From NCBI GenBank assembly GCA_903830945.1, contig CAIKVT010000023.1, forward strand, positions 1 through 64,000: a stretch of 64,000 nucleotides of DNA, in the 5' to 3' direction. Shown here piece by piece: positions 853 to 38,020 of the stretch (position 1 is its first letter; every line of letters starts with the position of its first letter). This DNA is from an uncultured Elusimicrobia bacterium (lineage in GTDB: Bacteria > Elusimicrobiota > Elusimicrobia > UBA1565 > UBA9628). The notes below the pieces were generated by a model. It worked only from the letters and a program-made list of their open reading frames with translations, was not told the origin of the DNA and did no database searches. The position numbers were made by a program, and so were the translations under genes.

Positions 853-899
853 CGATTAGAGTCATACCGCAGAACTCCAAAAGGAGATGCGGCATCCGA

Positions 900-5674: not shown

Positions 5675-5782
5675 ATCAAGCTGGCAAATCGTTCCCCGTT
5701 CTTAATCTCCGGGGCGCCTCGCCACTGAATAAAAGACAAAAAAACAGCCCTGCAGTTCCTATTTTCGTCACTTGGAAAAGAC

Positions 5783-7119: not shown

Positions 7120-7146
7120 GCCGGAACGGGCGCCTGCCTTGGGCAG

Positions 7147-7692: not shown

Positions 7693-7719
7693 AGAATCAA
7701 CATCAATCCTGGATAGCTT

Positions 7720-8709: not shown

Positions 8710-8712
8710 ATC

Positions 8713-9681: not shown

Positions 9682-9685
9682 GAAT

Positions 9686-10189: not shown

Positions 10190-10267
10190 ATTTTCTCCTG
10201 GCAATAGTCCTTCTTGAGGTATAAAATAAAATCCAGAATGCCGGATAACGTATTTTAGCCTATTCGG

Positions 10268-13242: not shown

Positions 13243-13259
13243 GCGCCGCCTCTTTCCGA

Positions 13260-16198: not shown

Positions 16199-16211
16199 GT
16201 GCCTCCTTACG

Positions 16212-17228: not shown

Positions 17229-17229
17229 T

Positions 17230-18024: not shown

Positions 18025-18079
18025 GTTTTTCGCCCCGCATTCAACAGCTAGCTACAGAATACCTTATGCTGCATCTCGC

Positions 18080-19303
18080 TCAAAGCAGCTGCCGCTTTTG
18101 TAAGTCATCGAACGAATCGTCAAGGGTATTATGCTCCTTGTAGAATGCGCCGAGCCCTTCCGATACCTGCGCGCACTTCGCATATAAGGAGTCGTCGCTA
18201 AACAGCCGGCAGATGGCCGCAGCCACTGCCTTGGCCTCATCGTCAGCGACTATGCCTGCGCCATGCTTTTTGATCGTTTCCGCGGTAAAGGCATTGGGCG
18301 TTGATACGACAGGCAAGCCAAAATGAAAATATCGCCGGATCTTTTCCGGATCTCCGTACGTAGCCGATGCCGGTGAATCGCAAGACCATATCGCAACGCC
18401 GATCCAGGAACATTTTACCAGATCGTTCAACTCCGCTTCCTTTAGAAAACCTGTGAATACAACATTTTCTGATATTTTAAGCTTTTGCATCAACGGGAGG
18501 ATTTGGGGCTTTTCGCGGTCCGCATGCCCTGTTATATATAGAGTTGTGTCGGGATATTTTCCCGCCACCACAGACAAGGCCTCAAGCATGATCTGCAAGC
18601 CTTGATGGCCTGCCCGGGTCGCGTACACGATCCTGTTTTTCTTTCGCTCGACCAAAGGCACAGGGGCGCCCGGGAAAAATGGGAGTCCGCCATGAATTAT
18701 ATGATGGGGGGCGAGCCTACGCGCATCCAAGCCCCTCTCGAGTCTTGACTCATGGATGTTTGGGTTCATCATCCAAATATAATCACCATGACAGGCGGCA
18801 ATCTCATCCAACTTAAGGAAGATTGAGTTCTTGAACCACGTATAACGATGTGGGTGGTAATCATTCGAGAAATAGAGGAGCGTGTGCAGGCGTCCAAGCA
18901 TCCTCAGCAGGATCGCGCTCAACGCATTTATGCTTTCCACGCCAATAAAAAGATCAAGCTTCCCCGGCACGACGAAAAGGATGAAATAGATATTTGAGAT
19001 GAAATCGCGGACCTTAAGCCTGACCACCGTCTGGTTCGATGTCACCTTTTGAGGATCCACCCAATAAAACATGCGCAAGAATTTCGGCATTCTTTTTATC
19101 CAAACGACTTTTCCACCCTTATAATAGGTCAGGACCGGCGTCAGTTCCGCTTCGCCCGACATGGGCTGACTAATCATATAAACGTCGCTGAACTTTCGGC
19201 AAAGATACCCCGTAATATTCTCTATTGGCCCAAAAAGCGCGTAGGTTTCATCATTGACCGTATTGATGTATGTGCTAAGCAGAACACTCTTATTGCTCGG
19301 CAT
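18080..19303 (-). CDS. Glycosyltransferase, GT-B fold (group 1 type)
   Basis: The start at 19303 gives 407 residues and leaves one base after the preceding gene's stop; an in-frame Met 30 codons upstream would overlap that gene by 89 nt and adds low-complexity residues. The C-terminal half shows the GT-B donor-binding domain: IVYATRAGHQGLQIMLEAL, TTLYITGHAD, VVFTGFLKEAELNDLV, and a late region with GDPEKIRRYFHFGLPVVST. The N-terminal acceptor half is weakly conserved. A retaining glycosyltransferase acting at the cytoplasmic face of the membrane is likely. Sugar and acceptor are unknown. Confidence 0.75.
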   Translation of the reverse strand: MPSNKSVLLSTYINTVNDETYALFGPIENITGYLCRKFSDVYMISQPMSGEAELTPVLTYYKGGKVVWIKRMPKFLRMFYWVDPQKVTSNQTVVRLKVRDFISNIYFILFVVPGKLDLFIGVESINALSAILLRMLGRLHTLLYFSNDYHPHRYTWFKNSIFLKLDEIAACHGDYIWMMNPNIHESRLERGLDARRLAPHHIIHGGLPFFPGAPVPLVERKKNRIVYATRAGHQGLQIMLEALSVVAGKYPDTTLYITGHADREKPQILPLMQKLKISENVVFTGFLKEAELNDLVKCSWIGVAIWSCDSPASATYGDPEKIRRYFHFGLPVVSTPNAFTAETIKKHGAGIVADDEAKAVAAAICRLFSDDSLYAKCAQVSEGLGAFYKEHNTLDDSFDDLQKRQLL

Positions 19304-19304
19304 A

Positions 19305-21902: not shown

Positions 21903-23329
21903 GATTCAAACCATTTTTGCTTCCTATCGAACCATCGCATGATGGATGGATGATGAAGGATCGCGATGATTTGGCTGAGCTTAAGGTTCATCAGCAGGTC
22001 GAGCAATATCCTGGGCCTAAGGTAGAAACTGCGTATGAACTTCTTCTGGAGCGCGACGATCTCCTCCAAAGACATTTCCTGGAAGGGTGGGACATATTCC
22101 GAAGCCTGGAACTTGAACACATTCTCAGCGTAACGCTGAGGAGAATTTTCTTCAAAAATAGCAGAAAAGTCCTCGCTGCCGGGATATGGGATATAGTTGC
22201 TTACCTGGATGCGATCGAAAGGCACGGTCAGGGCAAAGTCGATGGAATCCTTGACCTGATCGCGATGCTCCCCGCGGAGACCACATATGAAAAATCCGCT
22301 GACCTTGATCCTGTATCTATGGAAAAGCTCGACGACGCCCTTTACGATATCGAGGTTGAGCTTTTTCTTGATCGTCCGCATGATCTCAGCGTTGCCGGTT
22401 TCCACTCCCAAACCCACATAATACCCACCGGACCGCGCCATCTTTTCCACCAGCGGTGCGCTCAAACGATCGATGCGGATCCCGTTCGGGGCTCTCCAAT
22501 GGATGTTCGCTTTTTCCGCTATCAAGAGGTCGAAGATCTGCTCAGCACGGCTAAGATTCATCGTCAGGTTGTCATCGCTGATGAAGATCTCATCGACGCC
22601 GTATTCTTTTTTCAGGTACAGGATCTCGTCGACGATATTGCGGGGGTCACGATACCTCATCATGCGCTTGTTGGTCAACCCGGAGGAGCAGAAGGTGCAA
22701 AGATATGGACATCCTCGGCTGGTCAATATAGGAGCCGGTCTTTTCCCGCGCAGAGGCATCGTAGCCCCTTCCATGAGTGCGAAATACTTCTGCGGCTGCA
22801 GGATTCCCCAATCAGGCATGGGGATATCGTTCGCGTCTGGCAAAAATCCGAACTTCTCATCAGCATGCCGCCACTGTCCCTTGTTCTTGAAGAAGAATCC
22901 CGGAACCTTTGCGGGATCATTGATTTTTCCTTCCAGGAACTCCAGCATCTTTACAATAGCAATCTCGCCCTCTCCAAGGATCCCACAATCGGCGCCGACA
23001 AAATCCATCGCATGTTCTTTCAGCGCCGTGATATGCGGCCCGCCAACGACGACGACACAGTTCTTGAAGCGTTCTTTGACAAGGCCGGTAAAATCCTTCA
23101 CCCATTTGTGCGAGCCCGTGTAGACTTGGATACCGATCACATCGGCTCCGCCGTCGGCGATCACTCTTTCAAGGGCCTGAGCGGGCTTAAGGAGTTCCAA
23201 GGACCCATCGATCAGGGAGACATCTCTATAGGCGTTGCGCTTCAATGCGCTCGCAAGATAGCCCAAAGATAACGGCGGCGTCACCTGAAATCTTGAACCG
23301 AATGTCGGACGGACCAAACTAATTCTCAT
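21899..23329 (-). CDS. B12-binding radical SAM protein
   Basis: A 476-residue protein with an N-terminal cobalamin-binding domain (residues 1-135; IGIQVYTGSHKW, VVVVGGPHITALKEH, GILGEGE) and a radical SAM domain whose cluster ligands are Cys207/Cys211/Cys214 in SRGCPYLCTFCSSG. DEIFISDDNLTMN and GLGVETGNAEIMRTI are typical of this group, which includes BchE and methyltransferase enzymes. The start is tight against the end of the glycosyltransferase at 23375. It may act on the lipid carrier or a glycan precursor. The reaction cannot be read from the sequence. Confidence 0.85.
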   Translation of the reverse strand: MRISLVRPTFGSRFQVTPPLSLGYLASALKRNAYRDVSLIDGSLELLKPAQALERVIADGGADVIGIQVYTGSHKWVKDFTGLVKERFKNCVVVVGGPHITALKEHAMDFVGADCGILGEGEIAIVKMLEFLEGKINDPAKVPGFFFKNKGQWRHADEKFGFLPDANDIPMPDWGILQPQKYFALMEGATMPLRGKRPAPILTSRGCPYLCTFCSSGLTNKRMMRYRDPRNIVDEILYLKKEYGVDEIFISDDNLTMNLSRAEQIFDLLIAEKANIHWRAPNGIRIDRLSAPLVEKMARSGGYYVGLGVETGNAEIMRTIKKKLNLDIVKGVVELFHRYRIKVSGFFICGLRGEHRDQVKDSIDFALTVPFDRIQVSNYIPYPGSEDFSAIFEENSPQRYAENVFKFQASEYVPPFQEMSLEEIVALQKKFIRSFYLRPRILLDLLMNLKLSQIIAILHHPSIMRWFDRKQKWFES

Positions 23330-23374
23330 ATTGCTCGCTTGTCAGCCCCTGACCATTCTCGCCAATGGGGCACC

Positions 23375-24532
23375 CTATAGACATGCGATCCTCTTCCCAA
23401 AAATAAGGTTCCAATCATATTGCCGCGCGTAATCGATCGCGTTTGCACGCAACTGTTCCGTATCCCCCCTCACCATGAACTCTATCACCGCGCAAGCGAT
23501 ACTACCCGGCTCGTTCTGCACGATCCGGCCGCATCCGGCCTTCTCGATCTCTCGCGCCCTGGGAGGGACATCCGTCGTCAACACGAAAAGGCCGCTCGCC
23601 AGATAGTATTTCAGCTTCCCCGGATCGGTAAAATGAGTAAACGACAGGCCCCCTAAATCATCATGTTTTTCGTACATGGAGATCGCCACACCGCTTTTGC
23701 TCAGCATCTCCTCTATGGCGGAATGATCCTCGACGTAACCAGTAAACTCAAGATGATCCTCCACACGCAACCTCGCCGCTTGTTCTTTCAAAACATCGAC
23801 ATAATCGCCGCCGCCGATGATCAAGAATTTAAACTTGGGTATCTTTGAAATGATCTCCGACATCGCGGCGATCACATTCTGTATCCCCTGCTTCTTGATG
23901 ACGTGCCCCATGTAGACGAGGGTGTCTCTTTCGACCTGAGAAAAATCTTTTCTCTTGATCCTATCGAACCAGACGCCAATGGGCACCTCGATCTGGACCC
24001 CTCCGCTAAAGCCAAAATAGTCCTTCCTGGCGGTCCGCATCACGTCTGACAAATTCCATGTCTCATCGCAATGCCGGACACAGAATTGGTCGATTTTATG
24101 ATAAATGAAATTCAGCAAAGGATTGCCGAAGCGGCGCGGATTATAGTCAATGACATAATAGATGGTCTTCTTCGTCACGCCCAACAACTTAAGAATGATG
24201 CCACTCAATGCGTTGAGGTTATTGCATCCGATGTACACATCACATCTGCGCCCGAAGCGAAGTGTCCATTTTATATTCAGGAACAGCGCCCTAAAGTAGG
24301 AACAAAGCTCGGGCAATCTACTGATGGCAGCATGCTTTTCTTCGGTCTTACTGCCGGCTTGGTACAGTTCATAGCCAGATCCCTTCAATCGCTCGTCATA
24401 AAACAATGGATGTCCAATGAAAAGCAATCTCCCGACCTGTCTGCCCATCAAATAATCCCGAAGGTCCTGGGCAGGCCCAGTCGCATATACATGAGTCGCA
24501 ATGATAATTTCTTTTTGCGCTAATCCGGCCAT
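23375..24532 (-). CDS. Glycosyltransferase family 4-like
   Basis: With the start at 24532 the protein has 385 residues and begins one base after the stop of the preceding acyltransferase; the ORF itself reaches 11 codons further. GT-B marks are FSQVERDTLVYMGHVIKKQGIQNVIAAMSE region, FLIIGGGDYVDVLKEQ, HLEFTGYVEDH and GKLKYYLASGLFVLTTD. The N-terminal domain has DVYIGCNNLNALSGIILKLLG. It should transfer a hexose or similar sugar to a lipid-linked acceptor. It shares its general pattern, including NALSAIL/NALSGIIL, with the protein at 18080-19303, so the two may be distant paralogues. Confidence 0.8.
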   Translation of the reverse strand: MAGLAQKEIIIATHVYATGPAQDLRDYLMGRQVGRLLFIGHPLFYDERLKGSGYELYQAGSKTEEKHAAISRLPELCSYFRALFLNIKWTLRFGRRCDVYIGCNNLNALSGIILKLLGVTKKTIYYVIDYNPRRFGNPLLNFIYHKIDQFCVRHCDETWNLSDVMRTARKDYFGFSGGVQIEVPIGVWFDRIKRKDFSQVERDTLVYMGHVIKKQGIQNVIAAMSEIISKIPKFKFLIIGGGDYVDVLKEQAARLRVEDHLEFTGYVEDHSAIEEMLSKSGVAISMYEKHDDLGGLSFTHFTDPGKLKYYLASGLFVLTTDVPPRAREIEKAGCGRIVQNEPGSIACAVIEFMVRGDTEQLRANAIDYARQYDWNLIFGKRIACL

Positions 24533-24533
24533 A

Positions 24534-25076
24534 TCACAGATAGTCCTCGCTGCGAAATACTTCACTCTTAAGTTCTTCCATTTTTTCTTCAGGGAATCTG
24601 TAACGAATGACCTTGGTCGGCACCCCGCCCACTATCGCGAACGCTGGGACGTCCCTTGTGACAACCGAATTCGCGCCGATTATCGCCCCTCTTCCAACCG
24701 TCACATTCGGCAAAATGACGACATTTGACCCGAGCCACACGTCATCTTCAATCTTCACCGGTTCAGGGACAGCATCCTGGAACATCATTGGCTGAGCATG
24801 GTCGGCGAAGCAATGGTTCGCCGTTATAATATTGCAATTAGGACCGATCATGACAAAATTGCCAATTTTCAAGGAGCCCATCCCGGAAATAGTCGTATGA
24901 TGATTAATGCAAACATGATCGCCGATCTCTATGCCAGAAGGCGAAGAGATCATGCAAGAATGCATAATAAACACCCGTTTCCCCATTTTTTTCAAAAATA
25001 GCTTCCAAAAGCGGGCTCTCACCCGCGCGGACAAAAAGATACTCTTGTTATAGCACGCCTGCAAAAGTGAAATCAT
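24534..25076 (-). CDS. Hexapeptide-repeat O-acetyltransferase (WbbJ-like)
   Basis: A 180-residue protein made mostly of hexapeptide repeats: [24 protein letters not shown] region, [11 protein letters not shown] with the likely catalytic His, [38 protein letters not shown], and [15 protein letters not shown] at the end. This is the standard WbbJ/Maa acetyltransferase fold. It would acetylate a sugar of the glycan using acetyl-CoA. The N-terminus (about 30 residues) is basic and hydrophobic. Confidence 0.82.
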
Positions 25077-25125
25077 ATTTTTAAAGCAGCCATCTCAGTT
25101 TATTTTTCCTGCGGCCCTACTCATA

Positions 25126-26058
25126 TCAAACTTCCGCTGCGTCTTTTTTGAACAGATAAACAAGCCCGACCAGGAATCTAAGCGTGTACATCCCTGCCGA
25201 TAAAGCAGGATTCCCGAGCAATCTTTTCCACTTCCCATTCTCCAGGAAGACCCCAAAATATCGATATCCGAACCCCAACTGCTTTCGGATATCCGCGTCA
25301 TCGCAACCCCATTTCCTGGCATAAGCAGCCAGCCAATTCGCATAGTAATTCTTTTTTCTCAAATACTCGACGAAACGGAAATCCGCCTCATTGTGAAAAA
25401 TAGCCGCCCGGCACCCATCCGGATCGCCCCCGCGTTCCCGGATAAAAGCCGCCAATTCCCAGGGATGCCCAGGATCCCCCCGCCGCTGCCCGTCCAATAG
25501 CGCAATGCTGCCGACCTGCTTGATCTTCTTGTCCAAATCCCAATCCTCGACACCGGTGAGGCTCTCATCAAAACCGGCTATCCTCAAAAAAACATCTCGA
25601 CGACAGAACCGGACCCCGTCAATGACTGTCCCATCATAGCAACTACGCTCAAATCTCCTCACGCGGCTCCAAAAATTAGTCCCCAAGACGATCTCCGGGA
25701 TATGAAGCGCCACCGCATCCTGTCGGTTCAGGCGTTCGACACAGTCCCCAATTAGATCCGGAGCCAGAATCATGTCGGCATCAATGAACATCAAATAATC
25801 GCCCTTCGCCACCTGCATCATGCCGAAATTGCGCTGAGCCGAACGCTCCGGCCCCTTGTCAAAAACCTTGTCCGTGAAACTTCGAGCGATATCTTGTGTC
25901 CGGTCTACGGAATGATTATCGACGACGATCGTCTCGATATTCCCGTAGGACTGCGCCTTGATGCTCTTAAGGCACGTACCGATGTTCGCCTCCTCGTTCT
26001 TGGTGGTGATCGTTATCGAAACCAGAGGAAAATTCATATGGAACGCTTTTTCAACCAT
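25126..26058 (-). CDS. Glycosyltransferase family 2
   Basis: A 310-residue GT-A enzyme: VSITITTKNEEANIGTCLKSIKAQSY, ETIVVDNHSVDRT, then GDYLMFIDADMIL with the metal-binding DxD. The ATG at 26058 has GAGGAG about 11 nt before it; a second Met seven codons later is possible. The C-terminal 40 residues include a short hydrophobic segment that may bind the membrane. It should use an NDP-sugar to extend the lipid-linked glycan. Confidence 0.85.
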   Translation of the reverse strand: MVEKAFHMNFPLVSITITTKNEEANIGTCLKSIKAQSYGNIETIVVDNHSVDRTQDIARSFTDKVFDKGPERSAQRNFGMMQVAKGDYLMFIDADMILAPDLIGDCVERLNRQDAVALHIPEIVLGTNFWSRVRRFERSCYDGTVIDGVRFCRRDVFLRIAGFDESLTGVEDWDLDKKIKQVGSIALLDGQRRGDPGHPWELAAFIRERGGDPDGCRAAIFHNEADFRFVEYLRKKNYYANWLAAYARKWGCDDADIRKQLGFGYRYFGVFLENGKWKRLLGNPALSAGMYTLRFLVGLVYLFKKDAAEV

Positions 26059-26073
26059 GTTCAGAAGGTCTCC

Positions 26074-27237
26074 TCATGGCGTTTGTGCGCCTTGTTGAAG
26101 GACCTCCGCGATGGTCGAAGTCTGGAGGAAATCCTCGGCGTTCTCCCGCGAGATGACGCGCAGGGGGCATGTGATGCCCGAGGCTTGAAGGGCCTGCATC
26201 GTCGGCTTCCTCTTCATCCTGCCGCTCTTAACCTCGAAAGCCGCGATCGGCTCATTGTCCCGGACCAGGATGAAGTCGATCTCGGAAGGTTCTTCGCGCC
26301 AGAATTGCAGCTGATACTCCTTCTGCCCGAATAGGACATTGAGCAGATGGGACCCGACCAGATTCTCAAAAACGAACCCTTGTTCGTCGCCGTGCTTAAC
26401 GGCCGCAGCCACGAGGCCTGGGTTGGCTATGATCCACTTGGGTATGGTGCGCTTCGTGCGGTGCGGACGCCGCGAAAACTTGCCGAGGGGGACCAGGAGA
26501 AAGGCGGCGGCGAGCAGCTCGCCATAGTGGACAAGCGTCGCGGAATTTCCCTTGCCCTGCAAGTGCCCTAGGATCTTCTCATAGCTGATGATCTGGGCGG
26601 GCAGGCGTGACACGTACCAGAACAGCTGGCGCAGCAGCGCCGGCTTGTCCACGGAATGCAGCGCCAGAACGTCGCGGCCAAGGGTCGGCTCGAGGATGCT
26701 GTCGCGCAGGTAGGCCTCGAGCCGCTCGTGGTCGCCGCGCAGATCATAGCACTTGGGATATCCGCCGATGTCTGCGTACTCGGCGAGCGTCGCGCCGAAA
26801 CACTTGTGGCACTCGCCATAGGTCCAGTGTGGGAAGTAACTCACCTCGAAGCGGCCCGTAAGACTTTCCGCAAGGCCCTTTTCGATGAGGAGCGCGGAAC
26901 TGCCGAGGAGGCATACGCGCAGGGCGGTGCCATTCCGATGATCCTCATCCCAGAGCTGTTTGACCGCCTCGGACCAGCGCGGGATCTTCTGCACTTCATC
27001 CAGGATCAAAGTGCGCTGCGGCGACGGCAAAAGCCGCGCTCGGTTCCAATGCTCGGTGATGAAAGAGGCCGTTGGAGGGGTCGGCATATCGGCGTCCGCA
27101 TAGATCGCATCCTGAGGGCTCATCAGAGAAAGGGCCGTCGTCGTCTTTCCGACTTGACGAGGGCCGGTAAAAATCTGGATCAGACCTTTTGGATCATCCC
27201 ACCTATTTTTGATATTTTTTGGAATTACTCTTTCCAT
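26074..27237 (-). CDS. AAA ATPase with DUF4143-type C-terminal domain
   Basis: A 387-residue protein with Walker A GPRQVGKTT (25-33), Walker B TLILDEVQKI near residue 78 and a C-terminal domain resembling DUF4143/PD-(D/E)XK-like regions (EIDFILVRDNEPIAAFEVKSGR, with E, D and ExK residues that could form a nuclease site). These ATPases are widespread, usually solitary, and of unclear function; some are suspected toxin or mobile-element related proteins. It has nothing to do with sugar synthesis. An AT-rich leader and a hairpin precede it, so it looks like a separate transcription unit inserted in the locus. Confidence 0.85.
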   Translation of the reverse strand: MERVIPKNIKNRWDDPKGLIQIFTGPRQVGKTTTALSLMSPQDAIYADADMPTPPTASFITEHWNRARLLPSPQRTLILDEVQKIPRWSEAVKQLWDEDHRNGTALRVCLLGSSALLIEKGLAESLTGRFEVSYFPHWTYGECHKCFGATLAEYADIGGYPKCYDLRGDHERLEAYLRDSILEPTLGRDVLALHSVDKPALLRQLFWYVSRLPAQIISYEKILGHLQGKGNSATLVHYGELLAAAFLLVPLGKFSRRPHRTKRTIPKWIIANPGLVAAAVKHGDEQGFVFENLVGSHLLNVLFGQKEYQLQFWREEPSEIDFILVRDNEPIAAFEVKSGRMKRKPTMQALQASGITCPLRVISRENAEDFLQTSTIAEVLQQGAQTP

Positions 27238-27243
27238 AAAATA

Positions 27244-27272
27244 CTTATATAATAATTATAAATTATAAACAA
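27244..27272 (-). promoter_or_regulatory. AT-rich promoter of the ATPase gene
   Basis: Read on the minus strand, TTGTTT (27272-27267) and TATAAG (27249-27244) are separated by 17 nt, and the ATG of the ATPase gene is 6 nt further on. The surrounding 40 nt is almost only A and T. The geometry would give a leaderless or very short-leader transcript. No Shine-Dalgarno sequence is seen. This is a pattern-based call only. Confidence 0.4.
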
Positions 27273-27276
27273 TGAT

Positions 27277-27302
27277 ATTATCCGAGCAATAGCTCGGATA
27301 AT
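27277..27302 (-). terminator. Perfect inverted repeat after glycosyltransferase gene
   Basis: Two 11-nt arms, ATTATCCGAGC and its exact complement, enclose a 4-nt loop. The hairpin begins 2 nt after the stop codon of the glycosyltransferase at 27304-28281 and is followed on the minus strand by an AT-rich tract. It fits an intrinsic terminator, though the tract is mixed A/T rather than a pure U run. It would separate the ATPase gene from upstream transcription, and may reduce read-through into the downstream sugar genes. Confidence 0.5.
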
Positions 27303-27303
27303 C

Positions 27304-28281
27304 CTATCTCAAAGTGCTCCGCAGCGCCCGCGTCGACAACCCCTGTAAAAATCGCGCCCCATACACCAGATGCGTACAGAACGCGTACCAAAGGCTGCAG
27401 CAGGAGACGGCCAAGGTCTCGTATCTCAGGAAATCAGCCAAGATCTTCAACAACGCCAACCCGTAGGCCAGCCAGCCGGCCGCGATGAACATCCGAATCT
27501 CCCGCGGCATACATCTGGCAAACATACTCAACAACACGAACAGGACAAACGCCGCCGGCACGAAATAGGCCGGCCGCCGCGAAGTCTCCGGATGCGCTTT
27601 CACGAAGAATCCGCGGTGCAGGCCATAGCCCCCCACCTGCTTGAGGTGCTTCAGCCAGCCCGACCGCCGATGATGCCAGACCATAAGTTCCGGGACATAG
27701 AGGATCTTCTTGCCGACCTTCTTGACGAGGTCCAGGCAGAGTTTCGTATCCTCTCCAGGCCAATAGGAAGAATCAAATCCACCGATCGACAGGAAATCAT
27801 CCTTGCGCACCATGAGATTCACTGAAGGCCAATCGTCCACCTCTCGCGCGTGCCCAAGCGGCACGTATCGCTCCGGCGCCCCGCAGCAAAGCTTGCTCAA
27901 GAACACCGTGCCGGAAACGCGCTGCCAGAAACCGTCCTGCGGCGAAGTGACCGCGGGGCCGCCAAGGGCGACCACGCCGGAATCTTCAAAGTAGGGCACC
28001 GCGACGTCAAGCAAGTCCGCACGAGGATAGGAGTCATCATCCAGGAAGACCAGGATGTTGCCGCGCGCGCTTTGGGCCGCCAGGTCGCGCTTGACCCCCG
28101 GCCCCACGCGGCATGAGGCCATCAGGCGGATGCGATCATCATGCCACTCGCTGGGCGCCTCCGCGTTCGGGACGATGATCAGTTCCCAATCAGGGTTGCG
28201 CAGGCCAAGGATGTACGGCACCGTCTCGCGCACGTAAGCGTTGATCTCCTTGACCGGGATTATGATGCTGAATCTGATCAT
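27304..28281 (-). CDS. Glycosyltransferase family 2 with C-terminal membrane helices
   Basis: A 325-residue protein: FSIIIPVKEINAYVRETVPYI, NPDWELIIVPN, and ILVFLDDDSYPR carrying the DxD-type metal site, followed by IGGFDSSYWPGEDTKLCLDLVKK, typical of GT2 enzymes. Residues about 230-300 form two or three hydrophobic helices, so it is probably bound to the inner membrane. It overlaps the upstream radical SAM gene by one base. Donor and acceptor are unknown. Confidence 0.83.
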   Translation of the reverse strand: MIRFSIIIPVKEINAYVRETVPYILGLRNPDWELIIVPNAEAPSEWHDDRIRLMASCRVGPGVKRDLAAQSARGNILVFLDDDSYPRADLLDVAVPYFEDSGVVALGGPAVTSPQDGFWQRVSGTVFLSKLCCGAPERYVPLGHAREVDDWPSVNLMVRKDDFLSIGGFDSSYWPGEDTKLCLDLVKKVGKKILYVPELMVWHHRRSGWLKHLKQVGGYGLHRGFFVKAHPETSRRPAYFVPAAFVLFVLLSMFARCMPREIRMFIAAGWLAYGLALLKILADFLRYETLAVSCCSLWYAFCTHLVYGARFLQGLSTRALRSTLR

Positions 28282-29765
28282 CAGACTGGCTTGCGGAAGT
28301 CGGTAAGGTGGCCCAGAAGCTTCTTGCCCGCGCGGGTGAAGAACCTCAGGTCATCAAGTCCCCTGATGGACAATATCTTCCTGATGATATAGGCAGGAGA
28401 AGCGAAGGACGTATAAAGCATGCGCGTCAGCTCTTTGATATCCGCGTCGGAAACCGGCGCCGCCATGACGGCTTGGCGCATGTCGAAGCTATCCCAATCC
28501 TCGGTGAGAAGCCAACCGTTCTTCTTGCATTCATCAAACAGCGGAGTCCCCGGATAGGGGATGACGATGGTAGCCTGCAAAGTGTCGACCCACCCGTTGC
28601 GGAACAGCTCCTTGGCGAAAGCCACGGTGCGCAAAGCGTCTTCCTTGGATTCCCAAGGATAGCCCATCATGACCGTGATATGCGGCGAAAGCCCGGCAGT
28701 TTTGGCGGACTTGACGCCCTGCGCGATGGCCTCGACCTTAATGTTCTTATCCAACCTGTCAAGGGTCGCCTGGTTGGCGGATTCCAAACCGAACAAAACG
28801 AACCTAAAACCCGCCTGCGCCATCATCCGATAGTCCGCTTCGCCCAACGTCCCAAAACGCATGTTGCAATCGACTTTTATCTTCTTATGGTAGCCTCGCT
28901 CGATCATCCCCGCGCAGAATTCCTTGAGCCATGCGCCGACAGGGAAAGAGCCGCTGTCATCCATGATCTCCCGCACATGGTACTGCTCGATAAGGCGGCC
29001 GATCTCGTCGAGCATCTTACGCGGAGATTGGGCCCGGTACTTACTTCCCGGATACAAGGTCGTCCAGGAACAGAATGAACACTTGCCCCACCAGCAGTCT
29101 CGGGCCGCCATGGTGTAAGTGCCCGGCAGATGCTTGAAATTGCCGTTCTTCTCGCTGTAAAGCCTCCAGCGGGTAAGGTCGCGGTCGATGACAGGCAACG
29201 CCTCCAAATCGTGCTCCAATAGGCAGACTCCGGTACTCTTCGCCATCCCGCCCTCTCTATACCACATGCCGAGAGGCAGCCCGGATAGGACGCCCAAACT
29301 GCCGGCTGAGCGCAGGCAGCGACAAAGATCGCGCAGCAGGAAATCATAGTCCCCGCCGGTGAGGACGAAATCCACCGGGCAAGAAGACATGGATTCTTCC
29401 GGCCGGGCCGTGACATGGTCACCCATGAATACGACGATGGGCGTCCAGCCTTCGAGCTGTAGGCCTTTGAGCTCTTTGACGATCTCCCAATGGAGCTTGA
29501 CCACCGGGGTCTTTGTCTCCATAGCTATGACATCCGGCTTCTCCACTTTTATCCGCTCCAGCCACTTTTCATAAGAAAGGCTTTCCGCGATGCCGTCATC
29601 CCAAAGCACGGCAAAACCGTCCTCTTTGAGAAGTGTCGCGGCATAAGCCGGAACCATCGGATAGATGAAGGTAGGGTCGCTGAACCACTGAAACTGGCGA
29701 TTCTGCCCCAAAAGAGGGGTGCCTTTCGTAGAGCTGAGCGGCGGATAGGATATCGAGACCTTCAT
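28281..29765 (-). CDS. B12-binding radical SAM protein with CX4CX2C motif
   Basis: A 494-residue protein with an N-terminal B12-binding-like domain (residues 1-150) and a radical SAM domain. The three cluster cysteines are Cys224, Cys229 and Cys232 in ARDCWWGKCSFCSW. The spacing is CX4CX2C, one residue longer than the usual CX3CX2C; similar tryptophan-containing motifs occur in some B12-radical SAM subfamilies. FVLFGLESANQATLDRL and ITVMMGYPWESKEDA are typical of the barrel. It ends one base into the next gene, so it belongs to the glycan operon. The substrate is unknown. Confidence 0.82.
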   Translation of the reverse strand: MKVSISYPPLSSTKGTPLLGQNRQFQWFSDPTFIYPMVPAYAATLLKEDGFAVLWDDGIAESLSYEKWLERIKVEKPDVIAMETKTPVVKLHWEIVKELKGLQLEGWTPIVVFMGDHVTARPEESMSSCPVDFVLTGGDYDFLLRDLCRCLRSAGSLGVLSGLPLGMWYREGGMAKSTGVCLLEHDLEALPVIDRDLTRWRLYSEKNGNFKHLPGTYTMAARDCWWGKCSFCSWTTLYPGSKYRAQSPRKMLDEIGRLIEQYHVREIMDDSGSFPVGAWLKEFCAGMIERGYHKKIKVDCNMRFGTLGEADYRMMAQAGFRFVLFGLESANQATLDRLDKNIKVEAIAQGVKSAKTAGLSPHITVMMGYPWESKEDALRTVAFAKELFRNGWVDTLQATIVIPYPGTPLFDECKKNGWLLTEDWDSFDMRQAVMAAPVSDADIKELTRMLYTSFASPAYIIRKILSIRGLDDLRFFTRAGKKLLGHLTDFRKPV

Positions 29766-29775
29766 GACTTGAGCC

Positions 29776-31050
29776 TCAGCAACGCGCTTCCTGCGACGCG
29801 GAGACTGCCACGCTATTTCTGCCCAAAAGTCCGAGCATGACCATGGACAGGCCCAGGCTCATCAGGATGAACACTACTTCCAGGAGGGAATCATGAAAAC
29901 GATAGATGAGGAGTATCTCCAGGAATGCGCCCAGGATCATCACATAGGAGAAGAATCTTTCGCCCTTGGCGATGGAATAATTCATCAGGACCAACAAAAG
30001 CCCCATGGGCAGCATGGCGAGTCCAAAATACTTGAGCACAGGCGCGGCTTCCAGGTAGCGGGCGTTGAAAAGAACCTGGATGATCCATCTGGGAAACAGG
30101 AAGAACAACGCGGCGCCGAAACCGGATAAAGCGGCCGTGGCCGCCAGCGCCTTGGCCAGCAAGTGCCGGCTGTCCAGATTCAGGGCGTGGTGCTCGCTGA
30201 CCATGGGGAACAAGGCCTGCACGAATACTCCAGGAATATACATGACGCTGCGGCCCAGGATGGCGGCCGCGGCGTACATCCCGGCATCTTGGGCTGGGAA
30301 GAACCGGGCCACAAGGATCATGTCGGTCTGCGTGATCACCGTGAAGGCGAGATTGGCCAAAAATACAGGCAACATGTGAGCAAGTGATAGCTGATGGACA
30401 GTGTCAGCGCCCGGCTGTCCACGCAGCAGATGCCTTCTTATCGAGAAGTAGGCCAACAGCCATGATGCGATACTCGCGAGTATCAGTCCCAGCAACACCC
30501 CATTGACACCCAATCCGGCCAGTACCAGGATGACGCAGAGCATGAACTTCACCGGCCCGCCAAGCCCCGACACGATCCCCATCCACTTATAGTCCTGCAG
30601 GCCCTGCAATAGCGCGGTATTGATCGGCACGGCAAGCGCCGTATAAGTGCAGAGGCCAAGCAGGATGATCGGCATGAGGGTCGGCGAATGAAGATAGTCC
30701 GCCACATGACGGGCTCCCAACATGAATACGATCAGGCCAAGAAGACCTCCGAAAAGGATTCGTTGATGCGCCAGCCTGAAAAGGCCGCGGATTCCGGTGA
30801 AGTCCTTTTTGGCCGCATATGCCGCCGTCTTCCTCGCGACGACCATCAACAAAGTGGAAATCGGCACGCTCAAAACGACGAAAATAGCCATCAACGAGTT
30901 CAAAAAACCGTATTCCTTGGCGGAGAGCAGCCTTCCCATGACCACCTGGAATCCGTAACTGAACAGGTTGCTGACCAGGAAGGCCACGAACAACCCGCTA
31001 CTCGCCTTGAACAGACTGTCCGACAGGAAAGAGCGGAGACGGGCTCTCAT
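29776..31050 (-). CDS. Wzx-like polysaccharide flippase (MATE/MVF type)
   Basis: The ATG at 31050 overlaps the stop of the GtrB-like gene by 4 nt (ATGA) and gives a 424-residue protein. The longer in-frame ORF up to 31413 is antisense-like sequence inside the upstream gene and is not used. About 12-14 hydrophobic helices are visible, opening with ASSGLFVAFLVSNLFSYGFQVVMGRLLSAKEYG, the standard start of polysaccharide_synt/Wzx proteins. It would move a lipid-linked oligosaccharide across the inner membrane. A second flippase-like protein lies at 32006-33508. Confidence 0.82.
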   Translation of the reverse strand: MRARLRSFLSDSLFKASSGLFVAFLVSNLFSYGFQVVMGRLLSAKEYGFLNSLMAIFVVLSVPISTLLMVVARKTAAYAAKKDFTGIRGLFRLAHQRILFGGLLGLIVFMLGARHVADYLHSPTLMPIILLGLCTYTALAVPINTALLQGLQDYKWMGIVSGLGGPVKFMLCVILVLAGLGVNGVLLGLILASIASWLLAYFSIRRHLLRGQPGADTVHQLSLAHMLPVFLANLAFTVITQTDMILVARFFPAQDAGMYAAAAILGRSVMYIPGVFVQALFPMVSEHHALNLDSRHLLAKALAATAALSGFGAALFFLFPRWIIQVLFNARYLEAAPVLKYFGLAMLPMGLLLVLMNYSIAKGERFFSYVMILGAFLEILLIYRFHDSLLEVVFILMSLGLSMVMLGLLGRNSVAVSASQEARC

Positions 31051-32006
31051 TTGCGTCTGTCGAGGTCCGAGGCTTTGAAGTTGAATCTCTCTCTGACGAT
31101 ATAAAGGGGCCGATTGACGACCTCGGTATGGATAGTACCGATATACAGAGCGACCAACCCGATAGCCATCAGCACGATGCCGATGAGCAGCGTATTGATC
31201 ACAACAACGATGGCCAACGGAGTAAAAAGACTCGGATTGGAGATGAGCCTTGCGAACAGCATCCTTGACAACAACAAACCGCTGGCAACCGTAATGAAAG
31301 CGCCCAGGTATCCCGTCATCCGCAACGGGAATAAAGAAAACGACGTGAGGCTGCTGATGGCCAGGTGGACCAGTTGCACATAATTGAAGGAAGTCTTGCC
31401 GGCCTGGCGACAATCCGCTCGAAAACTCACATAGACTTTTTCAAATCCCATCCAGTCGATGACGCCGCGGAACAAACGTTCCCTTTCCGTGACCTGGCGA
31501 AAGACATCGACGACCTTCTTGTCGTAGAGACGATAATCCGTGGTCTGAGAAAGCATGTCCAATCCGGACATCCACGACATGAGCCAATAATAGAAATACG
31601 AACCCAACCGCCGGAGAATGGGCTGCTTGGCGACGCTGACGCGGATGGTGGCCACGATCTCAGCCCCTTGGCGCCAAGCCTCGACCAGCTCGGGGATCAA
31701 CTCGGGCGGATGCTGGAGGTCCGCGTCCATGCAGATGACGGCATCGGCATCACGGACCGCGTGCACGCCCGCGCTGAGCGCGATCTCCTTGCCGAAATTC
31801 CTGGAAAAATCGATGACTTTAACCCGCGGATCCTTTGCCGCCAGTTGCTTCAACGTCTCCAGGGAATCGTCGGGACTGCCGTCGTTGACGAAAATGTAGT
31901 CCCATTGGATGGCGGGGAGACCCGAGATCACCTTCTCAATCCGCTGATACAAGAACGGGAGGCTCTTGGCCTCGCAATAGACCGGAATGACGATCGTGAT
32001 TCGCAT
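31047..32006 (-). CDS. GtrB-like polyprenyl-phosphate glycosyltransferase
   Basis: A 319-residue GT2 protein: ITIVIPVYCEAKSLPFLYQRI, DYIFVNDGSPDDSLETL, VICMDADLQHPPELIPEL with the DxD site, and SFRADCRQAGKTSFNYVQLVHLAI before two C-terminal membrane helices (about 230-290). This is the pattern of bactoprenol glucosyltransferase GtrB and ArnC-like enzymes, which make undecaprenyl-phosphate-sugar as a donor for periplasmic GT-C transferases. The GT-C-like proteins at 19305-21902 and 900-2675 may be the users. It sits between two flippase genes. Confidence 0.85.
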   Translation of the reverse strand: MRITIVIPVYCEAKSLPFLYQRIEKVISGLPAIQWDYIFVNDGSPDDSLETLKQLAAKDPRVKVIDFSRNFGKEIALSAGVHAVRDADAVICMDADLQHPPELIPELVEAWRQGAEIVATIRVSVAKQPILRRLGSYFYYWLMSWMSGLDMLSQTTDYRLYDKKVVDVFRQVTERERLFRGVIDWMGFEKVYVSFRADCRQAGKTSFNYVQLVHLAISSLTSFSLFPLRMTGYLGAFITVASGLLLSRMLFARLISNPSLFTPLAIVVVINTLLIGIVLMAIGLVALYIGTIHTEVVNRPLYIVRERFNFKASDLDRRK

Positions 32007-33508
32007 CAGGTCCAGCTCCTAAGCAGTCTATTGCAAACGGCCTTATCCTCGGTCGTCGCCATCGGGATCAGGAACCAAAGCGCATAGAATAGCCCCCAAC
32101 CCGCCAGCCCTGCCGCCGCCAAAGACGGCCAGCCATGCACCCAGCGCGCCATCGCGGACAAGGCGGAGAACTGCGCCAGCGCCAATAGCCCCAGCTGCCC
32201 GAATAACTTGCCCTGGCCCCCGAACCATCCCATCCCAAAAGAATTCTCCAAAGAACCCATGAAGACGGCGGATTGAGCCATGCTGAGCACCGCGGCCAAG
32301 GCTGCTCCGATCATCCTCAGTCTGGGAATCAAGACCAGGCACAAGGCCACGTTCAACAAGGTCCCGATCGCCGCATAGATCGCGCTGACGCGGAAATTCC
32401 CCTTGCCATTGTAGATATAAGCAGGGACTACGGAAAGCGCTGACAAGAAATAGGCCGCCAGCAGCAGCTGCATGGGACCCGCGGACTGCTCCGCGAATCC
32501 CGGGAGCCACAGGCGCAGCAGTACCGGAGCCAGAATGACAGCCGGCGCCAAGATAGGCGTCAGCGTCAGCAAAGTGAGACGGCTGGCCCGCAGATAGAGC
32601 TCTTTCAACGCGTCGGTCGCCGCGGCCGCGCTCAGGCTGACGGCGCGCGGGAAAACGAATGACGACATGGCGGCCGCCAACACCAACAATTTACTGGCCA
32701 TGCCGACGGCCACTGAGTAGTAAGCAACCGCCGCCGGACCTAAAAAATAGGCGATCAAAAACTTGTCAACATGATAAATGCAAGAAGCGCTTAACTGCCC
32801 GATAAAAGCGTAGGCACTAGATCCGATCAGCCCCCCAATCTCGTGGAAGCGCCCGACAGGCAGCCACAACAGCGCGGGAAGCAGACGGGTGTTCCAAACC
32901 ACATAGACTGTCAACACTAGGAGTTCCAGACTCACAACCCAAAGGAATATGCCGGAAAGTCCGGAACCAAAACAGGCTAAAGTCACCGTGCCAAGCCATA
33001 AGACCACCTTGCCAAGGACTTGGATCATGGCAATCTGCGGAAATTGCTCCACGGCGCGGGGTAGGATCGAGACCGAGGCGGTTAGGATGGACAGGATCAA
33101 GGCGACGGCGGCAAGATGGACTAAGAACAGGGCTTTGCCGTACTCGATCGCCTGAAGCATGCCAAGAAGATAGACCAATCGCGGCGCGGCCAGCCACAGG
33201 GCCGCAGCCAGACAAATCCCCAGCAGCGCGAAAAGCGTGATCAGTTCGCGATGCAGCCGCACCGCCTTTGGCACATCCCCGGCCTCGATCGCTCGGCCCA
33301 TACCCAGAACACCACCGGCCCCCAGCCCAAAATCGATATTCCCCAGGAACGCCGGTATGGCGAGAAACAGCACCAATAGGCCATATTGAGCGTCTCCCAG
33401 GATCCGCACCAAAATGGGCGTGACGACCAAGTAGATTAGGGAGGGAGCAACCAAGCCGAAAATACTAAAAACGCCGCTTTTAAGGCCTGAGGGACGATTG
33501 AATTTCAC
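32006..33508 (-). CDS. Polysaccharide flippase-like membrane protein
   Basis: A 500-residue protein with about 12-14 hydrophobic helices, opening with IFGLVAPSLIYLVVTPILVRILGDAQYGLLVLFLAIPAFLG, a standard pattern of lipopolysaccharide flippases of the MVF/MATE-like superfamily. The start is GTG (33508) without a clear Shine-Dalgarno sequence. It is the first gene of the minus-strand locus and overlaps the GtrB-like gene by one base. It is not closely similar to the second flippase at 29776-31050, so the locus may export two different lipid-linked units. Confidence 0.82.
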   Translation of the reverse strand: MKFNRPSGLKSGVFSIFGLVAPSLIYLVVTPILVRILGDAQYGLLVLFLAIPAFLGNIDFGLGAGGVLGMGRAIEAGDVPKAVRLHRELITLFALLGICLAAALWLAAPRLVYLLGMLQAIEYGKALFLVHLAAVALILSILTASVSILPRAVEQFPQIAMIQVLGKVVLWLGTVTLACFGSGLSGIFLWVVSLELLVLTVYVVWNTRLLPALLWLPVGRFHEIGGLIGSSAYAFIGQLSASCIYHVDKFLIAYFLGPAAVAYYSVAVGMASKLLVLAAAMSSFVFPRAVSLSAAAATDALKELYLRASRLTLLTLTPILAPAVILAPVLLRLWLPGFAEQSAGPMQLLLAAYFLSALSVVPAYIYNGKGNFRVSAIYAAIGTLLNVALCLVLIPRLRMIGAALAAVLSMAQSAVFMGSLENSFGMGWFGGQGKLFGQLGLLALAQFSALSAMARWVHGWPSLAAAGLAGWGLFYALWFLIPMATTEDKAVCNRLLRSWT

Positions 33509-34179: not shown

Positions 34180-34305
34180 TTATATAAGTGACGCGCTGTA
34201 TTTGCGCAAAGAGAAGAATAAGCATATTGATTTCAATTCTTCCAATAATTCGTAAAAGAGAACAAAACAAGGTCCAGCTCACATGTATTACAGGAGGCCC
34301 ACACC

Positions 34306-34446
34306 ATGAAAGAGGTCGCCACGACAAGACCTCCCGTCGAGACTTTGAAAATCGCCGCCGTCTCACTGTGCTCGCAAGAAAAACTTGATAAACTCTATTG
34401 GCATCAGATGAGAAATCCCCTCCGTGCCGATCGCCCCAGCTCATGA
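34306..34446 (+). CDS. Small ORF coupled to the fusion gene
   Basis: A 46-residue ORF with a strong ribosome-binding site (CAGGAGG, 8 nt before ATG 34306). Its stop overlaps the ATG of the giant glycosyltransferase fusion by 4 nt (ATGA at 34443-34446). The peptide starts MKEVATTRPPVETLK and has no recognisable domain. It may be a real small protein, a leader whose translation opens the start of the next gene, or the relic of a lost gene. The coupling is seen directly; the role is inference. Confidence 0.45.
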   Translation: MKEVATTRPPVETLKIAAVSLCSQEKLDKLYWHQMRNPLRADRPSS

Positions 34447-37400
34447 AGATCGCCTTCGTCTGTGACTGGCTCACCGGAATGCGCGGCGGGGAGAAGGTTC
34501 TGGAAGCCGCTTGCGAGATCTTCCCCCAGGCGGAGATCTACACGCTGCTTTGCAGGCCGGAAAAGCTCTCAGATTTCCTGAACTCCAAGATCATCCACAC
34601 CTCCTGGCTCGACAAGATGCCGGGGGCGAAGATCCACTATCGCTACCTCCTGCCCCTGATGCCCTGGGCCATCCAGAGCTTCGATCTGGGCGACTACGAC
34701 GTGGTGATCTCGTTCAGCCACTGCGTGGCCAAGGGCGTACGCTTGACGCAACGGCCCGGCCGCCGGCCGCCTCTGCACATCTGCTTCTGCCACACTCCCA
34801 TGCGCTACATCTACGGGCAGTTCAACGCCTATTTCGCAGACGGCACCCGCCAGTGGATGAAGCTCGGCGCCGACTGGATTCGGCCTTTCCTAATACGCTG
34901 GGACCAGAAGACCAGTCGCAGCGTGGACTCGTTCGTGGCCAACAGCGAGAACGTGCGCCGGCGCATCGCCCAGGCCTATGGCCGGGACGCGGCCGTGATC
35001 TACCCAGCCGTGGACACGAATTTTTTTCACTTACCCTCCGCCAGCGACAAGCGGCCAGACGCGCAGCCGTACTATTTGATGGCCGGTGCCTTGGTCCCCT
35101 ACAAGCGGATAGATCTCGCCATCGAGGCTTGCCGGCTTCTGGGCGCGCGGCTGAAGGTCGTGGGCTTAGGCACCGAAGAGCCGCGGCTCAAACGCCTCGC
35201 CGAAGGCGCCACGGTGGAGCTCCTGGGCTGGCAGAGCGACGAGGCTTTGCGCGCGCTTTACCAACATTGCGAGGCGCTCCTTTTTCCGGTAGACGAGGAT
35301 TTCGGCATCGCCCCGGTGGAGGCCATGGCCTGCGGCAAGCCGGTAATCGCCTATCGAAAAGGCGGCGCTCTGGAAACGGTCCACGCAGGCGAAACCGGCC
35401 TGTTCTTCGATGCGCAGACCCCTCAATCCCTGGCTGACGCCATGACCAAGGCTCGGCAGATGCGTTTTAATCCCACCGCGATCCGCGCCCATGCCCTGAA
35501 GTTCGACAGGAAGAATTTCATAAGCCGATTCGGGCAGTTCGTACAGGACGCCTATCGCACGCGCGCGGCCCCCACAGAAACACGGTCTACCGTGCGAGCT
35601 CAGTTCGAAGCATTCAACTACGCCGCATTATGCGTCGTCCTGACCGCGCTGGCGCTGCTCCTTCCGATCTCAATCGCCAGCATCAACGTCACGCTGGGCC
35701 TGATGACGGCGACGCTCGTGTTCCTCACCACCTCCGGGCGCTCCTTGGACTGGAGCCGGGTCCGTGGGCCCACGGCTGGTTGCCTAGGCCTCTACTGCGC
35801 GGTCTCGATCCTGACTTCATTGACGGGAGTCGCGCCGGCGCATAGCCTGCACAATTTCCACAAAGATTTTCATAAGCTCTGGGCCTTCATCATCCTCGTC
35901 CTGGCCTGGCGCACCGCGCCCAAGCGCTTCCCGATGATCGCCTTGGCCCTGGGCTTCGTCTTCATCGCCGCCTGGGGCCTGGCTCAGTCCGGCCTGAGTT
36001 GCTACCAAGTCTTCATCGTTCATGGCCTCACCCAGGACTGGCTCCGGGCCCACGCCTTCGTGCATCCCGTGACGTACGGCGAGATGCTGGCCATGGGCTT
36101 TCTAGGGGGCCTCGCCTGGCTCGGCTCGCGAGCGTCCCGCCAATCAACGCAGCCCTGGGTCGTAGGCTCTCTGGCCCTGCTGGGCGCAGCACTCATCCTC
36201 AACCAGACCCGCGGCGCCTTTCTGGGCATCCTGGTGGGTCTAGCGACCCTCTGCGTTGCCGAGCCGGCTTTTCGACGCTGGCTCAAATGGGGGCTGCCGG
36301 CGGCGGCCTTGGGCACGGCGGCTTTCGCGCTTCTCCTACCTTCGCATCGCTCCCCAATCGCCGCGTTGTGGCATCCCGGGACCGCTGGAGATGCTCGCCA
36401 AGGGCTCGATCGCCTCGTCCTCTGGGACGTGGCTTGGCGCATCTTCAAGGACCACCCGTGGCTGGGAGTCGGTCCCGCCAACTATGCCACAGTCTTCACT
36501 CGGTACTTCCAAGGAATACTCGACAAGACTCGCGTCTGGAGTTCCGCCCACAACATTATCCTGCAGCAGCTGGCGGAGCGCGGCCTCGTCGGCTTGACAG
36601 CTCTTCTAGCGTTGGGCTGGGCTCTTCTGACGCGGGCCTGGCAACGCGTCCGCCAGGCCCCGAACGCCAGGACTCTGTGGGCTCTAGCGGCCACGACCGC
36701 CTTTTTCGTCATGAACCTCACGGAGAGCGCTTTCCAGAACGAACAGATCACCACGCTCTTCCTGTTCATCTGGACGCTGGGAGAAGCCGGACCGACGCAG
36801 GCCGAGACGGAAAGAATTGACGAGGATTTAAAAAGGACCAAAGTCTTCGAAGTCCTGGAATGCGGCTCGCCGTATGGAGTCGGCCAGCAAATCGCGGCCT
36901 TAGCCCGGTTCATCGCTCATGACCGGTTCGAGCCCTGGGTCGTGTACTCGGTCAGGCCGGGATTTAAGTCCGGGGAGTTCGAACGGATGACGGGCTCAGC
37001 CGACAGACATGTCCATATCCCGGACATGGTCCGCGAGATCAGCCCCGGCAAGGACCTCGTCGCGTTCTGGAAGCTCTACCGGCTCATGCGCCGCGAGAAG
37101 CCGGGCGTCGTCCACGCGGCGTCCTCAAAAGCCGGCGTGCTCGCCCGCGCGGCCGCCTGGCTGGCCGGCGTGCCTCGCATCTATTATTCCCCACACGGCT
37201 ACAGCTTCCTGCAGACCGACGTGGGTCCGCTGTGCCGGAGGTTCTACTGGTGCATCGAAAAGTCCGTCTCCTGGATCGGCAACGTCATCGCCTGCTCAGA
37301 CAGCGAGAGGGCCGCGGCGCGCCGGCTTTCCTGGGGCCAAGAGGTCTTCCAGGTGCGCAACCTCATCGTCATGGGACCACCCCCTCCCCGCAGCCGCGCC

Positions 37401-37937
37401 CGGGACGGACTGGTCTTAGTCGGGGCCGTAGGCCGGCTGTCATCAGCCCGCAACCCGGAGGCATTCATCCGCATGGCAGAGCGCCTCGTCCAGGAGCATC
37501 CGGAAGCGCGCTTCGTCTGGATCGGCGGCGGAGAGCTCGAAAGCGAGATTCGGCGCGAGGTGGACAGGCGCGGGCTCCAGAAAAATCTCGAGATCACGGG
37601 CTACATCCCGCGGGAGCGCCTATTCGACAGGTTCGTGAACCTGGATATCTTCGTCCACTATTCCCGTTGGGAAGGTTCGCCCACCGCAATCTACGAAGCG
37701 ATGGCCCTGGGACTGCCGGTCGTGGCTTCAGACATCACGGGCAATGCCGAGCTTGTGGCGCCCGGGACCACGGGGTTCCTAGCCGCAAGCGAGGACGACC
37801 TCCTGCGGCATATCATAACCCTCGTCAAATCCGCGAACCTACGCACAGAACTAGGCCGAAACGCCCAGGCCCGGGTCAAACAGGCGGCATCTCTCGAGGA
37901 GTCGGTGCGGGCCTTCGAACGCCTCTACACCTCGTAA
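34443..37937 (+). CDS. Glycosyltransferase / O-antigen ligase / glycosyltransferase fusion
   Basis: The ATG at 34443 (MKIAFVCDWLTGMRGGEKVLE) gives 1164 residues in one unbroken frame; an upstream Met at 34398 adds 15 unrelated residues. Residues 1-387 form a GT4 domain (PYKRIDLAIEACRLL, VELLGWQSDEALRALY, FGIAPVEAMACGKPVIAY). Residues 388-795 are an O-antigen ligase/Wzy-type membrane domain with about ten helices, ILNQTRGAFLGI, DHPWLGVGPANY and SSAHNIILQQLAERGLVG. Residues 799-1164 are a second GT4 domain (VGAVGRLSSARNPEAFIRMAE, FVWIGGGELESEIRR, SRWEGSPTAIYEAMALGLPVVAS). Both transferase domains should lie in the cytoplasm, flanking a membrane core that acts on undecaprenyl-linked glycan at the periplasmic side. 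The parts are normally separate proteins. Confidence 0.88.
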   Translation: MKIAFVCDWLTGMRGGEKVLEAACEIFPQAEIYTLLCRPEKLSDFLNSKIIHTSWLDKMPGAKIHYRYLLPLMPWAIQSFDLGDYDVVISFSHCVAKGVRLTQRPGRRPPLHICFCHTPMRYIYGQFNAYFADGTRQWMKLGADWIRPFLIRWDQKTSRSVDSFVANSENVRRRIAQAYGRDAAVIYPAVDTNFFHLPSASDKRPDAQPYYLMAGALVPYKRIDLAIEACRLLGARLKVVGLGTEEPRLKRLAEGATVELLGWQSDEALRALYQHCEALLFPVDEDFGIAPVEAMACGKPVIAYRKGGALETVHAGETGLFFDAQTPQSLADAMTKARQMRFNPTAIRAHALKFDRKNFISRFGQFVQDAYRTRAAPTETRSTVRAQFEAFNYAALCVVLTALALLLPISIASINVTLGLMTATLVFLTTSGRSLDWSRVRGPTAGCLGLYCAVSILTSLTGVAPAHSLHNFHKDFHKLWAFIILVLAWRTAPKRFPMIALALGFVFIAAWGLAQSGLSCYQVFIVHGLTQDWLRAHAFVHPVTYGEMLAMGFLGGLAWLGSRASRQSTQPWVVGSLALLGAALILNQTRGAFLGILVGLATLCVAEPAFRRWLKWGLPAAALGTAAFALLLPSHRSPIAALWHPGTAGDARQGLDRLVLWDVAWRIFKDHPWLGVGPANYATVFTRYFQGILDKTRVWSSAHNIILQQLAERGLVGLTALLALGWALLTRAWQRVRQAPNARTLWALAATTAFFVMNLTESAFQNEQITTLFLFIWTLGEAGPTQAETERIDEDLKRTKVFEVLECGSPYGVGQQIAALARFIAHDRFEPWVVYSVRPGFKSGEFERMTGSADRHVHIPDMVREISPGKDLVAFWKLYRLMRREKPGVVHAASSKAGVLARAAAWLAGVPRIYYSPHGYSFLQTDVGPLCRRFYWCIEKSVSWIGNVIACSDSERAAARRLSWGQEVFQVRNLIVMGPPPPRSRARDGLVLVGAVGRLSSARNPEAFIRMAERLVQEHPEARFVWIGGGELESEIRREVDRRGLQKNLEITGYIPRERLFDRFVNLDIFVHYSRWEGSPTAIYEAMALGLPVVASDITGNAELVAPGTTGFLAASEDDLLRHIITLVKSANLRTELGRNAQARVKQAASLEESVRAFERLYTS

Positions 37938-37963: not shown

Positions 37964-38020
37964 TTTTCTCGCGACATCTCGCGAAAATGTCTTGACACTG
38001 TAATACGTCACAGTTATACT
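37964..38020 (+). promoter_or_regulatory. Near-consensus promoter with palindromic operator-like sites
   Basis: TTGACA (37992-37997) and TATACT (38015-38020) are separated by exactly 17 nt, close to an ideal sigma-70 promoter for the SprA-like gene, whose TTG start is at 38089. An inverted repeat ACTGT-(8 nt)-ACAGT fills the spacer (37997-38014). Just upstream, 37964-37987 holds two TCGCGA boxes within a larger symmetric element. A repressor or activator could bind either site. The regulator is not identifiable. Confidence 0.6.

Follow-up and report, generated by a model that had tools for sequence, protein, structure and literature searches.

Glycan assembly by Wzx/Wzy-type pathways usually distributes the cytoplasmic sugar transfers, the flipping step and the periplasmic polymerization or ligation over individual proteins. 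The window analyzed here, i.e., the whole stretch of 64,000 nucleotides from contig CAIKVT010000023.1 of an uncultured Elusimicrobia bacterium (phylum Elusimicrobiota; GenBank assembly accession number GCA_903830945.1), contains an open frame in which two GT4 glycosyltransferase domains, GT4A and GT4B, flank a WaaL/Wzy-type membrane domain. The locus raises the question of whether such a protein is real, how it arose and what it might do. Our preferred reading, to which we assign a probability of roughly 60%, is that of a genuine trifunctional glycan-assembly enzyme, which originated when a Wzy/WaaL gene from within the genus was placed in frame in the linker of a preexisting GT4A-GT4B fusion.

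Three enzyme modules in one reading frame

The frame encodes 1164 residues without an internal stop, and the longest open stretch in the remaining frames of the same DNA is 323 codons. Pfam matches above the curated cutoffs were obtained for Glycos_transf_1 (twice; 3.3e-64, 216 bits), Glyco_transf_4 (twice; 1.1e-23, 84.5 bits) and Wzy_C (PF04932; residues 576 to 721; 1.8e-20, 73.7 bits versus a cutoff of 31.7). The initial annotation of GT4, ligase-type domain and GT4 in one uninterrupted frame is hence borne out by translation and Pfam, and its domain limits (387/388 and 795/799) lie close to the boundaries of about 381/388 and 790/797 that were obtained from the alignment with relatives (Table 1).

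Table 1. Coordinates of the fusion gene, its modules and neighboring features in the window
Feature	Coordinates	Strand	Basis or remarks
46-codon leader ORF	34306..34446	+	AGGAGG ribosome site; stop overlaps fusion start
Three-domain fusion gene	34443..37937	+	Open frame, Pfam; 1164 aa plus stop
GT4A, WbaZ-like GT4 glycosyltransferase, residues 1 to about 381	34443..35585	+	Pfam; identity to relatives; PDB 2f9f
EX7E signature of GT4A, residues 285 to 293	35295..35321	+	Motif present
WaaL/Wzy-type membrane domain, residues about 388 to 790	35604..36812	+	PF04932; 51/51 conserved positions; WaaL 7tpg fold
Conserved Arg590 (TRG) of the WaaL/Wzy domain	36210..36212	+	Conservation among relatives
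Conserved His703 (SAHN), presumed equivalent of the O-antigen ligase catalytic His	36549..36551	+	Conservation; PMC9938171
GT4B, second GT4 glycosyltransferase, residues 797 to 1164	36831..37934	+	Pfam; identity to G001
EX7E signature of GT4B, residues 1077 to 1085	37671..37697	+	Motif present
Divergent glycan cluster, ~33 kb, no Wzy_C gene	124..33508	-	GTs, epimerases, acyl-/methyltransferases, HddA/HddC-like, radical SAM, two flippases
Wzx-type flippase (Polysacc_synt_3) of the cluster	29776..31413	-	Overlaps the next gene; true start possibly internal
Second Wzx/MatE-type flippase, first gene of the cluster	32006..33508	-	Domain match

GT4A shows 67 to 70% identity to the corresponding domain of GT4A-GT4B fusions from five genomes, stand-alone relatives with 44 to 53% identity occur in many phyla, and 103 of 106 family-conserved positions are kept (conservation defined on 14 relatives). 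Its best match among solved structures is PDB 2f9f "wbaZ-1" (1.3e-16), which represents the WbaZ-type GT4 mannosyltransferases; GT4A differs from these enzymes in being fused.

Origin of the three-part form

Six family genomes encode GT4A and GT4B joined directly through a short linker; three belong to the genus of the window genome (G001, G002 and G005) and three to a sister genus (G020, G057 and G060). The encoded proteins match the window protein in their two GT4 domains and the order of these but have no membrane domain in between, whereas the window protein lacks the direct join typical of its relatives. If residues 385 to 790 are omitted, it aligns end to end with all six (that of G001 being cut by a contig end), and the Wzy module of about 400 residues occupies exactly the GT4A-GT4B linker of the relatives. 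Given this exact position, the module most likely entered the linker of a two-GT4 fusion that already existed. In the relatives with the two-part fusion, Wzy homologues are separate genes, and that of G001 is the nearest relative of the Wzy module (64 to 65% identity; support, 100/98). In the tree, both sit inside a clade of six sequences (99/98) from genus g1 and G044. The separate Wzy gene of G001 is located on a different contig from the G001 fusion, and this contig ends inside the Wzy N terminus.

Conservation of the full fusion in a clade, which had been proposed as a check, was not borne out. No second three-part frame was found by whole-protein searches of 44 family and 235 class genomes, by a Wzy-domain search of 341 phylum genomes, in which the frames with weaker matches were inspected in part, or among the frames of the loci examined, including 80 named GT4A loci. 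A Wzy homologue at 1e-25 was present in 78 of the 341 phylum genomes. The three-part form appears to be of recent origin.

An older three-part form would mean that the common ancestor of the window genome and G001 had GT4A-Wzy-GT4B, and that G001 lost the middle. The GT4B sequences of the two indeed form a distinctive clade with a long stem, and their Wzy sequences are sisters. However, the two-part fusion also occurs in the other five carriers, so that a two-part ancestor is simpler, and in G001 the closest Wzy is still encoded separately, on another contig. We regard an older three-part form as fairly unlikely and prefer the insertion into a two-part fusion.

The neighbors of the two-part fusions, e.g., a WbaP-type starter enzyme downstream in G001 and a WecA-type enzyme together with a Wzy_C gene upstream in G002, fit an addition of sugars by GT4A and GT4B to a lipid-linked starter. 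The gene order of the window was not recovered around the two-part fusions of relatives, and essentially none of the window neighbors adjoins them. The Wzy_C gene of G002 (L030:5615-6934) belongs to another subfamily and lies directly upstream, touching the frame of the two-part fusion. Several other large frames were rejected as further fusions. In the 1335-codon Wzy frame of G062, G+C-rich sequence ahead of an ordinary Wzy start is simply read through, and the large open frames of G017 and G044 are separate frames when read from stop to stop.

Divergence of GT4B

GT4B is 71 to 72% identical to that of G001 and 44 to 50% identical to that of the other two-part fusions. It keeps 93 of 119 family-conserved positions (conservation defined on 31 relatives), and the 26 departures, which exceed the family norm, include His893 as well as Gly809 and Gly811 in the glycine-rich loop at the N terminus of the domain. 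With the other alignment rows as the reference, 30 departures were counted, of which 20 are also departures in G001, 12 of them with the same letter. This pattern suggests an altered specificity or a weakened activity of GT4B in the lineage of the window and G001. Moreover, GT4B of G002 falls outside the group of the other fused GT4B sequences in the tree, and this domain may therefore have been exchanged in the course of evolution too.

The departures, and their partial sharing with G001, also agree with a real fusion in which one module, most likely GT4B, has become noncatalytic and acts as a scaffold or membrane tether. Yet GT4B retains EX7E, SPHGYSFL and the GRL...R motif, and conserved positions are almost completely kept in GT4A and completely in the Wzy module; such a loss of function is accordingly unlikely, and three active modules remain the favored reading. 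In the GT4B of G001 (L028:1664-3205), the EX7E region has one extra residue (EGGAPIALHE), and its activity is thus uncertain.

The WaaL/Wzy-type membrane domain

The membrane domain keeps every one of the 51 positions conserved in its family (conservation defined on 27 relatives), Arg590 and His703 among them; the catalytic role of the His has been described for O-antigen ligases (PMC9938171). In a profile search of solved structures, WaaL (PDB 7tpg) was the sole significant match (1.7e-17). An AlphaFold2 model of residues 385 to 790, based on seven sequences and of modest confidence (pLDDT, 64; pTM, 0.65), had WaaL as its clear best fold match (Foldseek, 3.3e-06). Residues 5 to 402 of the model align with residues 5 to 407 of the 7tpg chain (Z score, 19.9; 343 residues; root mean square deviation, 5.1), while the next matches, with Z scores of 13 to 15, have the related FtsW/RodA fold. 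The end-to-end alignment of the model implies that the predicted domain has the full set of helices, with both of its ends, and hence the two GT4 domains, on one side of the membrane. This side would be the cytoplasm, because GT4 enzymes use nucleotide sugars; the N and C termini of WaaL-type ligases are both cytoplasmic. These ligases, exemplified by WadA and WaaL of Escherichia coli, have 12 membrane helices and periplasmic loops (PMC9938171). The window domain has the complete fold, the conserved Arg and His and the Pfam match in common with WaaL and the Wzy_C family, whose members normally stand alone, whereas the window domain is flanked by a GT4 domain at each end. The assignment of the membrane part as a complete WaaL-type module with signature residues is thereby supported, and two cytoplasmic active sites and one periplasmic active site are the natural reading of the model.

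O-linked protein oligosaccharyltransferases have the Wzy_C domain in common with ligases and polymerases, and sequence alone cannot separate these functions. Nevertheless, the profile match and the fold both single out WaaL, and a membrane domain that glycosylates proteins instead of acting as a ligase or polymerase is highly unlikely.

Integrity of the two joins

The G+C content at third codon positions is even across GT4A, Wzy and GT4B (0.81, 0.79 and 0.80), with no break at either join. Near the first join, the single in-frame ATG, GTG or TTG is a GTG at residue 384, which is not preceded by a sequence resembling a ribosome site, and none of these codons occurs in frame between residues 770 and 829 around the second join. 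Since the downstream modules have no plausible start or ribosome site of their own, the Wzy and GT4B modules are probably made only within the fusion polypeptide. The longest sequence shared by the two join regions, a possible trace of the arrival of the insert, is 7 bases only, and no Rfam match was obtained around the fusion gene.

An assembly join and separate genes in relatives had been named as grounds for abandoning the fusion. The in-frame joins speak against the former, and the latter applies in part, the GT4 domains of the relatives being fused and their Wzy genes separate. A chimera in which assembly or binning misjoined a separate Wzy gene between the GT4 halves would be compatible with the single assembly of 84 contigs and the restriction of the three-part form to this one genome, but we consider it very improbable, given that both joins lie on the same strand, in frame and exactly within the short linker without stops, that the join regions share so little sequence, and that the downstream modules lack the start codons that separate genes would keep. 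As far as sequence can show, the fusion is real and intact.

Proposed function and the divergent glycan cluster

According to the favored reading of a trifunctional enzyme, an undecaprenyl-diphosphate-linked glycan would be started by another enzyme and extended in the cytoplasm by GT4A and GT4B, each adding sugar in turn. Turning the product over would fall to a flippase supplied in trans, probably either of those encoded in the divergent cluster, and the WaaL-fold domain, accessible from the periplasmic side, would then transfer the glycan to lipid A-core as a ligase or to a growing chain as a polymerase. We infer the membrane sides, the substrates, the order of the steps, the ligase or polymerase role and any benefit of tethering, and lean slightly toward a ligase. 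The initial annotation spoke of a single machine; three enzyme modules are indeed combined in one polypeptide, but the need for a flippase in trans makes this an overstatement. It is a tentative idea, and one that we doubt, that the tethered sites on both membrane faces couple two cytoplasmic sugar additions to periplasmic ligation or polymerization. A single chain would then determine both how the glycan ends and whether the ligase or polymerase accepts it, while the flippase would be recruited in trans. Seven Wzy_C matches were detected in the genome, of which that of the fusion is the only one on this contig; with six further genes, the Wzy domain of the fusion is dispensable in principle.

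The glycan cluster starts 934 bp from the fusion gene on the opposite strand and contains GT2 and GT4 enzymes, epimerases, one methyltransferase and acyl- and acetyltransferases, together with HddA- and HddC-like enzymes that score below the NCBIfam cutoffs. We infer that the fusion serves this cluster. The initial remark that the strand of the fusion is otherwise devoid of glycan genes holds for what was checked, yet it misleads in view of the diverging cluster. Nor is the fusion a self-contained unit, since the starter enzyme and the flippase must come from other proteins and both candidate flippases lie in the adjoining cluster. The presence of LpxC and a Kdo-transferase domain indicates that the host probably makes LPS; the genome furthermore has four WecA-type matches and a weak Wzz match.

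The cluster contains further genes of note. Three encode B12-binding radical SAM enzymes (11230-13281, 21899-23329 and 28281-29765), and a thiamine enzyme pair resembling PDH-E1 alpha and beta (14205-16198), located beside epimerases, might make a branched sugar. An AAA_14/DUF4143 ATPase (26074-27237) lies among the glycan genes. The 865-aa protein encoded at 19305-21902, which is apparently membrane bound, and the product of 900-2675 have no Pfam or NCBIfam match.

Precedent and significance

Brucella WadA is a bifunctional core glucosyltransferase and O-antigen ligase, and it was introduced in 2023 as the first membrane-spanning enzyme with two activities of this sort (PMC9938171). By the published description, the WadA chain comprises a glycosyltransferase in the cytoplasm and an O-antigen ligase of 12 helices, and the two catalytic sites lie on different sides of the inner membrane. 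The frame and Pfam matches place the window protein in the same class of glycosyltransferase plus ligase in one chain (PMC9938171). WadA, however, comes from a different phylum and has two domains with nothing after the ligase, whereas the window protein continues with a further GT4 domain. Literature searches for published glycosyltransferase-ligase fusions returned WadA only. The window fusion adds a third catalytic domain to the WadA-type design and apparently had an independent origin. A physical complex of Wzx/Wzy-pathway enzymes is hard to demonstrate, and the natural joining of two transferases to a ligase or polymerase represents genetic evidence for their ability to work side by side. 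Related proteins that differ in whether this linker carries the membrane module could serve as matched controls.

Leader ORF and downstream gene

The fusion gene is preceded by a small ORF, which the initial annotation had described as coupled. Its ATG follows an AGGAGG (34292-34297) at a distance of 8 nt, its stop overlaps the ATG of the fusion (ATGA), and the fusion start itself has no clear ribosome site. The ORF with its ribosome site and overlap is therefore present as described, and this arrangement makes translational coupling plausible. No homologue of the leader ORF was found in 43 other family genomes, and it has no Pfam match. Downstream of the fusion, a gene at 38089-43887 encodes a 1932-aa protein resembling the SprA/Sov outer-membrane translocon (TIGR04189; its 154 bits stay under the cutoff of 200). 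It is preceded by a promoter-like sequence, TTGACA-17-TATACT, at 37992-38020.
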